A DNA stretch of 64,000 nt, from positions 1 to 64,000 of the forward strand of contig NZ_JAAUOE010000020.1 of assembly GCF_017114915.1 (NCBI RefSeq), written 5' to 3'. Positions 2,708 through 4,534 of the stretch are shown in pieces. The stretch's first letter is position 1, and each line of letters begins with the position of its first letter. Source of the stretch: Pseudomonas frederiksbergensis. GTDB taxonomy: Bacteria; Pseudomonadota; Gammaproteobacteria; Pseudomonadales; Pseudomonadaceae. A program made the position numbers and the translations under genes. Below the pieces are notes generated by a model. That model was given only the letters and a program-made list of their open reading frames with translations. It was not told the DNA's origin and did not search any database.

Positions 2708-3154
2708 ATGAGCGGGTTGACCGATTTTCACATTTTCTGGGGCGCTGCGATGGAGATCGCAGAAAAGCAATCCGCGTCGATGGAAGCCGAAGGTGCAGAA
2801 GATTTTGCAAGGGGTCTTTACAACGAATACGTCGAGCAAAGCGCCCCAAAAAATAAAAAGAAATGGCTAACAGAACGTCTAGAAAATGAGTTCCTGTGTT
2901 TGAATGAAAAACCTGTATGGGTGGGCGAACCAGCCTGGTTATATCATCAGGGCCTACCCATGGTCTTCCTACATCAATTTTTAGTCTCACACTCAGCACA
3001 GCATATAAAAGAAAAAATTTCACTTGGCGACACCCTATACGTGTTTGGCTCAAAACATATTCTTAAAAGATCATCAGAGGAAAGTTGGACGGTCATTTAT
3101 CGAACGGCCGTCCAAACCTTTGAAGGAGAGACTGCAGCGGAAATCCTAGAGTGA
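2708..3154 (+). CDS. Hypothetical protein in the Rhs tip region
   Basis: A 148-residue ORF with an AGGAGA ribosome-binding site a few bases before its ATG. It is AT-rich compared with the chromosome and lies just after the Rhs immunity gene. It has no signal peptide or membrane segment; a lysine-rich part (PKNKKKWLTERLENEF) is followed by an aromatic-rich section (VWVGEPAWLYHQGLPMVFLHQF). Family not recognised. Context suggests a second or orphan immunity protein left by an earlier toxin tip, which is inference only. Confidence 0.6.
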   Translation: MSGLTDFHIFWGAAMEIAEKQSASMEAEGAEDFARGLYNEYVEQSAPKNKKKWLTERLENEFLCLNEKPVWVGEPAWLYHQGLPMVFLHQFLVSHSAQHIKEKISLGDTLYVFGSKHILKRSSEESWTVIYRTAVQTFEGETAAEILE

Positions 3155-3300: not shown

Positions 3301-3425
3301 CAGGTGCTGCCGAACACAGTGCGGCCAGCAGCCTGCAGCACCATTACGACGAACTCGGCAACCTGATTCAGCCCCCCAATCCTGATCAAAAATGGTTTTC
3401 CAGTCGGTCCCACGCCAATGCCTGA
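3301..3425 (+). pseudogene. Degenerate fragment of Rhs core
   Basis: Translation from 3309 gives AEHSAASSLQHHYDELGNLI, nearly identical to the AEHSAAGSLQHHYDELGNLI segment of the upstream rhs gene (about 778-838). Similarity fades through PDQKWF (PDDRWL upstream) to a TGA at 3423. The start of the fragment has lost one base relative to the intact copy (CAG-GTG-CT-GCC against CAG-TTG-CTC-GCC). Such orphan core pieces downstream of an rhs gene are typical scars of tip displacement by recombination. Confidence 0.75.
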
Positions 3426-3446
3426 CAGTGCTTGTTTAAAAGCCTT

Positions 3447-3491
3447 GTAGGTAACGTCGTGAAAGCTACAACACCTTGCGTCGTTGCCTAC
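3447..3491 (+). repeat. Inverted repeat in the Rhs-DUF6124 intergenic region
   Basis: GTAGGTAACG at 3447-3456 can pair with CGTTGCCTAC at 3482-3491 (one G-U). An alternative hairpin uses TTGTAG (3445-3450) with CTACAA (3466-3471). No U-run follows, so it is not an ordinary terminator. Its role is unknown; it may be part of the structured leader that follows. Confidence 0.35.
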
Positions 3492-3551
3492 GGCTACGCC
3501 AGAATCCGCTGGCTTGTGCGCTTTGGGGCCGGTCGGTACCTTGATTCGTGT

Positions 3552-3774
3552 CACTGATCGTCAGTGGTCGGGTTTAGTCGCCCGCTGGTAATTGAAGTTG
3601 TACAAGCGTCCGTCAGACAGGTATTTCCTACCTGCATTTGATGGTAGCTGTGCGTAGGGCACCTTTGGGTGCGCCGGCTTCTTCAATTCCCCGGTCCGAC
3701 TAACCTGCGTACAGCTGCCTCCCCTTCGTTTAGTCGGCGAAGTGGTGTCAGCATCACTCAAGGAATTGAAGATC
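3552..3774 (+). ncRNA. Structured 5' leader (candidate RNA switch) of the DUF6124-type gene
   Basis: The leader contains hairpins CACTGA/TCAGTG (3552-3566), CAGGTA/TACCTG (3618-3634), and a 16-bp stem in which all positions pair (3643-3658 with 3704-3719, three G-U) enclosing GCACC/GGTGC (3659-3672) and GCCGG/CCGGT (3673-3695). CTTCG/CGAAG (3724-3742) and, sharing base 3742, GTGGTG/CATCAC (3742-3757) follow. The loop of the GCCGG hairpin contains CTTCAATTCC (3681-3690), an exact complement of GGAATTGAAG (3762-3771), which includes the GGA of the ribosome-binding site. The octamer AATTGAAG also occurs at 3590-3597, so the same loop could pair upstream instead. The pairings are read directly; the switching role is inference. 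Confidence 0.6.
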
Positions 3775-4170
3775 ATGTTCAAAGTTACACCTAACCCACC
3801 GGACACCGATCCGGTCTCCCCATACGAAAGCCCCGATTCAAAAAAACTCAACGACGCCGCCGAACGCGCCCTCGACCACCACTTCCCGCCAGCCGAACCA
3901 AAGCCACCGAAACGCAAAGGCCAGCTCTTCAGCGTCTGCCCGGGCATCAACACTGAAGCCCTCCTCGCCAATGCCTCGGAAGATATCTTGTCCATCAGCG
4001 CCATCGCCGCCGACCTCGCCGACGACGTGGACGGTTCACGCCGCTCCGTAGCCCTGGCGCTCAGCCGCATGGCCGACGGGGTGCATTTGTTGGTAGAGCG
4101 CGCGCTGGATCACCTGAATGAGCCGGAAATAGCAGCGATTCTCGCCAGGAAACAAAGCCGAGTCGGCTGA
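3775..4170 (+). CDS. DUF6124-type small protein
   Basis: 131 residues. The ATG at 3775 is chosen over an upstream in-frame GTG (3742) because it has AAGGA about ten bases before it and gives the MFKVTPNPP start that I recall as typical of this Pseudomonas family. The N-terminus is proline-rich (PNPPDTDPVSPYESPDSKKL), followed by AAERALDHHF, a basic proline patch (PKPPKRKG), then two helices (LANASEDILSISAIAADLADDV and the C-terminal stretch). No signal peptide or transmembrane segment. The function of the family is unknown. The long structured leader suggests post-transcriptional control. Confidence 0.75.
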   Translation: MFKVTPNPPDTDPVSPYESPDSKKLNDAAERALDHHFPPAEPKPPKRKGQLFSVCPGINTEALLANASEDILSISAIAADLADDVDGSRRSVALALSRMADGVHLLVERALDHLNEPEIAAILARKQSRVG

Positions 4171-4182
4171 TCCGCCAGACAG

Positions 4183-4222
4183 AAAAAATGGGCACCCAAC
4201 CTCGTTGGCGTGCCCATTTTTT
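4183..4222. terminator. Bidirectional rho-independent terminator
   Basis: AAAAATGGGCAC, a CAAC-CTC-GTTG top and GTGCCCATTTTT form a long hairpin with an A-run on one side and a U-run on the other. It lies between the convergent DUF6124-type gene and the HU gene and can serve both. Confidence 0.9.
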
Positions 4223-4258
4223 ATCCCGCTCGCCCGCTGCGCGGGAAGTCGGTGCGTG

Positions 4259-4534
4259 TTACGGATTAACGCTGTCTTTCAACGACTTGCCTGGCTTGAA
4301 CGCAACAGTGTTGCTGGCCTTGATTTTGACTGGCTCACCGGTTTGCGGGTTTTTGCCGGTGCGGGCACCGCGATGGCGTTGCAGGAAGGTGCCGAAGCCC
4401 ACCAGCGTGACGCTATCCTTGCGATGCAGAGCGCCGGTGATTTCTTCGAGAACGGCGTTGAGAACGCGATTGGCCTGTTCTTTGGTGAGGTCTGCTTTTT
4501 CCGCGATGGCAGCGGCGAGTTCTGGTTTACGCAT
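4259..4534 (-). CDS. hupA: HU-family histone-like DNA-binding protein
   Basis: 91 residues, the standard length for HU. The N-terminal helix pair (MRKPELAAAIAEKADLTKEQA) is followed by GFGTF and the DNA-binding arm RTGKNPQTGEPV, whose proline intercalates into bent DNA in this family. HU works as a dimer that compacts and bends the nucleoid. Its position next to the rubredoxin genes matches the hupA paralogue of other pseudomonads, which decides the symbol over hupB or hupN. It is transcribed alone, with the shared terminator just downstream. Confidence 0.93.
   Translation of the reverse strand: MRKPELAAAIAEKADLTKEQANRVLNAVLEEITGALHRKDSVTLVGFGTFLQRHRGARTGKNPQTGEPVKIKASNTVAFKPGKSLKDSVNP

Follow-up and report, generated by a model that had tools for sequence, protein, structure and literature searches.

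The element at positions 3637-3725 (plus strand) of the window, by which we mean the whole stretch of 64,000 nt from Pseudomonas frederiksbergensis that was analysed, is by its sequence a C4 antisense RNA and a member of the known Rfam family RF01695. The Rfam scan gave 69.6 bits (E 1.8e-11) against a gathering score of 45 bits, with model positions 1-87 complete. The element belongs to a system in which each chromosome carries tens of C4 modules, mostly matched to an uncharacterised gene of their own. This system would be a new arrangement; no published description of Pseudomonas C4-DUF6124 modules was found in the open-access literature, supplementary files aside. We give a probability of about 0.85 to a model in which C4 would be processed by RNase P and would block translation of the DUF6124 gene in trans, with the upstream a1b1 region holding the uncut C4; of this model, the fold, the matched sites and their maintenance are supported by comparison. 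The sequence-only reading had proposed a candidate RNA switch whose trigger was left unnamed, and has to be revised in this respect, as the element belongs to a known family for which action by a processed trans-acting RNA has been described.

The fold itself had been recognised correctly. Positions 3643-3658 and 3704-3719 are paired at 16 of 16 positions, three of these being G-U, and this long stem encloses two hairpins. Of the flanking hairpins, read before as at least four, two are of the a1b1 type. With -44.4 kcal/mol (z -5.7) the 89-nt element has a folding energy reached by none of 200 shuffles. The pairing sites, all on the plus strand, are named a1, b1, a', b', a2 and b2 following phage P1 usage. 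The b' segment CTTCAATTCC (3681-3690) makes up the second hairpin's loop and was rightly said to be exactly complementary to GGAATTGAAG at 3762-3771; the full b2 site GGAATTGAAGA (3762-3772) is an 11-nt exact complement of b', lies over the ribosome-binding site and ends two bases before the ATG of the DUF6124 gene. The octamer AATTGAAG, noticed earlier as recurring upstream at 3590-3597, is indeed present and represents the b1 site, an 8-nt exact complement of b'. Of the pairing plan, the b set had thus been seen, but the a set had been missed. Its a' segment (about 3697-3703) forms the junction that links the second hairpin to the long stem's 3' strand, and has an exact 7-nt complement in the a1 site TTAGTCG (3574-3580) and an exact 8-nt complement in the a2 site TTAGTCGG (3730-3737); the motif TTAGTCG, found at 3574-3580 and 3730-3736, is complementary to GACTAA at 3698-3703 within this junction, 3' of the second hairpin. 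The a1 site is located in the loop of the second hairpin of a c4-a1b1-like double hairpin (3550-3584), for which the gathering score of RF03163 was not reached (18.7 vs 46.7 bits); it was reached at seven of the 20 own-genome loci scanned. A match to RF01394 (isrK) at 3550-3626 also stayed below its gathering score (17.1 vs 50 bits). By analogy with P1 (PMC5320573), RNase P would probably cut at the GG that opens the long stem on its 5' side (3643), a position that would fit processing to about 77 nt. When a sigma-70 consensus promoter was looked for at 3400-4260, none was found.

The presumed target at 3775-4170 (plus strand) encodes a protein of 131 aa, and its PF19619 score of 85 bits (cut-off 27) bears out the DUF6124-type gene that had been read downstream of the leader. 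An inverted repeat with 13-nt perfect arms (4183-4222, plus strand), a probable shared terminator, lies between this gene and an HU-like gene; a similar repeat was also seen by eye 5' of the HU-like gene in two further loci (L067 and L072). On the 5' side of the window, an Rhs/YD-repeat-like gene (82-2313) is followed by two small genes (2317-2604 and 2708-3154), neither of which gave a Pfam match over the cut-off or an NCBIfam match, and a short Rhs core remnant was recognised by eye at about 3308-3370, just 5' of the C4 module.

Phage P1, according to its record (AF234172), carries a1, b1, C4, a2, b2, icd and ant in this order, with a1 and a2 (TTGACAG) and b2 (GTTAGTGA) being exact complements of C4, and b1 being complementary except for its last annotated base. 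As a positive control, P1 gave 68.8 bits for C4 (RF01695) and 51.0 bits for a1b1. The C4 of P1/P7 (RF01695 with c4-a1b1, RF03163) and the window element therefore agree in fold, in the order a1-b1-C4-a2-b2 and in a b2 site close 5' of the start codon, whereas the P1/P7 C4 targets icd/ant and the window C4 is chromosomal, occurs in many largely distinct copies and faces a DUF6124 gene; the window target is not icd/ant, its match being PF19619 instead. The Rfam scan thus led to a known RNA with a related plan, hence not to an unrelated element. A ligand-binding riboswitch or a thermosensor, as the title of the sequence-only reading suggests, might be suspected from a long stable fold ahead of a ribosome site, and is hardly credible here. 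In Rfam, the element falls to C4 over its full length; at gathering scores C4 alone was matched within the window and no riboswitch model, and at E up to 1 the region 3400-3900 gave C4, c4-a1b1 and isrK only and no riboswitch family. Moreover, the target-pairing loop is the most variable part of C4, unlike a conserved ligand pocket. From the C4 identity and the P1 site plan, a ligand riboswitch was therefore discarded.

The window pairings were compared with chance by dinucleotide shuffling. The 11-nt exact complement of the hairpin loop downstream was equalled in none of 2000 shuffles and the 8-nt complement upstream in four of 2000, and the a set is weaker taken alone (8/2000 downstream, 126/2000 upstream) but recurrent across the family. 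Folding of the whole uncut leader led to a predicted minimum that is not the 16-bp stem but a rearranged structure, in which b1 pairs with b' (pair probabilities of 0.85-0.97), a1 pairs with a' and the C4 stem is broken. Enforcing the 16-bp stem costs only 0.6 kcal/mol. The either/or pairing of the loop suggested before is indeed predicted for the uncut leader, with the upstream pairing winning. This agrees with a reading of the leader as mainly a cis switch, alternating between a1b1-captured C4 with an open ribosome site and the C4 fold, with no free processed RNA, for which Salmonella IsrK would be a precedent, a similar leader described in excerpts of PMC4825925 as having two exclusive folds that set translation. 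However, the pairing of b' with b2 inside the same uncut RNA has a predicted probability of 0.01, the predicted uncut folds of eight of 24 own-genome leaders keep the C4 stem, because of which the a1b1 holding fold is not general, and in P1 it is the processed C4 that acts on the target mRNA, according to parts of PMC5320573 and PMC12197685. We therefore regard a mainly cis-acting leader as somewhat unlikely; it is not wholly exclusive with the model of a processed C4.

Covariation of the stem, a check suggested along with the sequence-only reading, was found. When 23 own-genome C4s (24 hits minus one below threshold) were aligned, 14 of the 26 stem pairs showed changes on both sides and 98.2% of the cells were paired. 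None of five covariation measures was reached in 500 shuffles, and slid structures dropped to 29-44% paired. At the level of sequence, the long stem and the two hairpins are thus kept by compensating changes.

Of the 24 C4 hits in the own genome, 23 exceed the gathering score, and three relatives hold 41, 42 and 35 hits, of which 39, 41 and 35 exceed it (full counts). Among 149 sampled Pseudomonas genomes, including the own one, C4 was found in 137 and DUF6124 in 118; per-genome C4 counts from this sample are lower bounds from the best 27 candidates scored. A class-wide sample of 274 genomes, again including the own one and with Acinetobacter not picked by name, contained C4 in 18, and only the own genome had more than six C4s among the best 15 candidates scored per genome. 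Judged from both samples, the expansion of C4 is therefore strong in Pseudomonas. Control genomes gave C4 matches at E up to 10 in five of 14 cases and over the cut-off in none. Of the 22 DUF6124 matches in the own genome, 11 lack a C4 hit within a distance of 500 nt; some of the 11 are cut by contig ends.

We were able to compare cognate and non-cognate pairing in 137 modules from four genomes, namely 24 from the own genome (G000, where contig ends cut four targets), 41 from G005, 42 from G019 and 30 from G010; these are all but five of the 142 hits, and the five left out are all from G010. An exact run of at least 7 nt between a' and a2 is present in 128/137 modules, compared with 5.9% of the non-cognate pairs formed within a genome, and between a' and a1 in 123/137 (9.1% of non-cognate pairs); for b' the corresponding values are only 92/137 with b2 (3.0%) and 63/137 with b1 (8.0%). 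The cognate mean of the pairing runs was reached in none of 10000 permutations. Runs of at least 7 nt at both a2 and b2 were detected in 89/137 cognate combinations, 8/4784 non-cognate combinations within a genome and 41/13848 across genomes. Pairing of loop and target, for which covariation had also been proposed as a check, is therefore retained across very different sequences. The window C4 matches no second target of its genome by at least 7 nt at each of the two sites, nor is the window target matched in this way by a second own-genome C4. A stricter rule excludes any other target that combines an a run of 7 with a b run coming within 1 nt of the cognate length; under this rule, 22/24 modules in G000, 28/41 in G005, 32/42 in G019 and 21/30 in G010 have a unique own target. 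The separation of modules is therefore strong, yet incomplete, and several C4s could reach the target of a paralogue. Since the a and b sets within a genome are mostly distinct, the main effect of each C4 should fall on the gene of its own module.

An a1-like match of at least 6 nt was located upstream in 135/137 modules; a few of these are plainly misplaced, and most of the others lie within a c4-a1b1-type hairpin as judged by eye. Terminator-like hairpins with T-runs between b1 and C4 were found in 25 of 126 modules (4.2 expected from shuffles; 11 of the 137 were left out as they had no usable a1 position), and a subset of modules may be attenuated ahead of C4 by such hairpins. As a general attenuator, a terminator at this place was rejected, as the 25 are a minority and the window locus is not among them. 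Orphan DUF6124 genes of the own genome were also considered as trans targets of other C4s, and among ten examined no sound case emerged: C105:3781 and C33:118122 match one C4 by 7 nt at both sites but have cut or uncertain starts, and C53:62234 and C83:147161, with a1b1-like leaders, showed runs of only 5 and 6 nt.

Clustering of 123 of the 137 targets, those of at least 80 aa, gave 90 DUF6124 genes, 15 of an unnamed family, ten DUF3077, four Bro-N and four singles, with family names resting on scans of one to two members per cluster and, for Bro-N, of one. By the criterion applied, C4 is not followed by an open frame in one module of the 137 (G005 15590). Bro-N is a domain of the type met in phage antirepressors, and Bro-N targets would link these modules with phages, the setting from which C4 is known. 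A relationship between DUF6124 and DUF3077 is probable from an hhalign probability of 81% (E 1.2e-5). The unnamed family gave 15% with DUF3077 and 0.5% with DUF6124, and Bro-N about 0.1%; kinship of these two families is therefore not supported by hhalign. One target, G005 3201382 (L124), appears as a DUF6124-like start joined to a body of the Bro-N cluster. Among named records, the nearest DUF6124 proteins are those of P. migulae and P. mandelii. The structure model of DUF6124 is a long helical hairpin (mean pLDDT 76.7, pTM 0.46). Of the 216 PDB matches that a fold search with this model gave at E up to 10, none reached an E of 0.001 or below, and therefore no function was read from the structure. 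A small helical protein with many paralogues, the probable antisense control and the existence of broken modules would also fit a type I toxin-antitoxin-like pair, with the DUF6124 protein being harmful and C4 the antitoxin. C4 and the gene seem to be co-transcribed, so that the classical plan of stable toxin and unstable antitoxin is not evident, and we consider such a pair unlikely; it bears on the role of the protein and is compatible with the antisense mechanism of C4.

Immediately 5' of the DUF6124 gene, C4 was found at 70 of 80 genome loci examined (of 397 found) and was lacking at ten. On viral contigs it was present upstream in 54 of 55 DUF6124 loci, immediately 5' in 46 and some 520-640 nt away in eight, and in the sole locus without C4 the gene starts at base 10 of the locus. 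The neighbours on one such contig (L284) resemble Mu-type head and tail genes, as read from the sequence. Eight DUF6124 loci without C4 (L220, L221, L237, L246, L250, L255, L260 and L264) seem by eye to have kept an a1-type hairpin directly 5' of the ribosome site, and C53:62234 and C83:147161 of the own genome resemble them. A search for DUF6124 among plasmids gave no match, as did a search for DUF3077, with one protein, among phage records; DUF6124 gave one match among phage records, Pseudomonas phage DVM-2008, where a DUF6124-like gene (EU982300.1, 52-405) adjoins the prtR end of the record. Among the viral-contig C4s tabled, nine of 21 have a target that is matched by at least 7 nt at both sites by a chromosomal C4 of the four genomes; such matches would also arise from related modules, the across-genome rate given above serving as reference. 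A Group II intron match (RF02001) was noted just 3' of the module in L195 (3095-3180).

The a/b set of the window is common to 13 of 21 modules compared, the window included, and its HU-side flank to eleven of 21. In the relative L198, which shares this flank, b1, b' and b2 have all changed together and still match, giving a b set unlike that of the window. In the relatives, a search of about 1.5 kb on both sides of the HU-like gene, where the contig allowed, led to a C4 at one of 22 loci (L076), located before a gene resembling the unnamed family. Between genomes, 26 module pairs share a flank, three of them both flanks. In 19 of 20 such pairs compared, similarity is lower in the second-hairpin loop than in the stems, which are 64-100% alike with gaps left out; one flank-sharing pair (C36 and G005 2521054) is unchanged. 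As the proteins are only 29-49% alike in five of the 20 pairs, these may not be orthologues.

When the DUF6124 gene of the window was compared with each of six relatives, synonymous codon differences exceeded non-synonymous ones (raw counts, not normalised). A decayed remnant of prophage immunity without present function, as might be supposed from C4 being known from phages and from the loss of the a'-a2 match (run below 6) in G000 C50, G005 2815861 and G005 6154195, is difficult to reconcile with this synonymous excess and with an a'-a2 pairing kept in nearly all modules despite sequence change; we regard it as very unlikely. All three modules are below the gathering score, and the fourth hit below it (G019 2963687) has retained its a'-a2 match.

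For the processed C4, the following sequence of events is proposed. A transcript starting upstream of 3550 would run through a1b1, C4 and the DUF6124 gene. As long as it is uncut, a1 and b1 are predicted to capture a' and b' and to hold C4 inactive. C4 would then be excised, by RNase P as in P1, and would fold into the long stem with two hairpins, as comparison supports. Acting in trans, C4 could use its b' loop to pair with b2, which covers the ribosome site, and its a' junction to pair with a2; by analogy with P1 these pairings would block DUF6124 translation. With its ribosome site blocked, the gene would therefore stay largely silent in cells that have accumulated its own C4, and would be open in cells that the module has newly entered or that lack C4.

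To our knowledge, the sar RNA of phage P22 is not of the C4 fold. It is similar to the C4 system as an antisense RNA to ant mRNA that blocks the antirepressor, as described in part of PMC12197685. IsrK of prophage Gifsy-1 (RF01394), the leader of an antirepressor operon with two exclusive folds, differs in that its short leader RNA activates translation, unlike the block proposed for C4 (PMC4825925, excerpts). An isrK hit was listed immediately 5' of a C4 hit in Burkholderia (sections of PMC4603805), and C4 and isrK hits adjoin in Xylella (sections of PMC12189769). From the two-fold leader of IsrK and these neighbours, a1b1 as a catcher of C4 is therefore plausible. The presence of C4 motifs in Pseudomonadales was already known, Weinberg 2010 being cited for it in the excerpted text of PMC5320573. 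The same text describes 21 similar C4-like sRNAs (Group 1) in the genome of Acinetobacter baumannii AB5075, with a variable a' loop and apparent processing at GGW; their targets are left open there, whereas here most C4s precede and match their own gene.

As to the purpose of so many copies, one could tentatively imagine a diversifying set, with tens of self-silencing C4 modules per Pseudomonas chromosome, also borne by prophage-like contigs and each with its own code, sensing newcomers through DUF6124/DUF3077 effectors, an idea that we ourselves find rather doubtful. If true, the code would mark a resident module, and an incoming one would be read only in cells lacking that code; codes would shift at the same locus so that modules avoid silencing each other, and the DUF6124/DUF3077 proteins would be effectors of zygotic induction. 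Irrespective of this, DUF6124 and DUF3077 gain a likely regulator, and the C4s of Pseudomonas come with clear candidate targets. Tens of largely separate antisense pairs share one cell, with recognition segments that change jointly at two or three sites; the modules thus offer a test bed for the evolution of RNA specificity and might supply orthogonal translational controllers.
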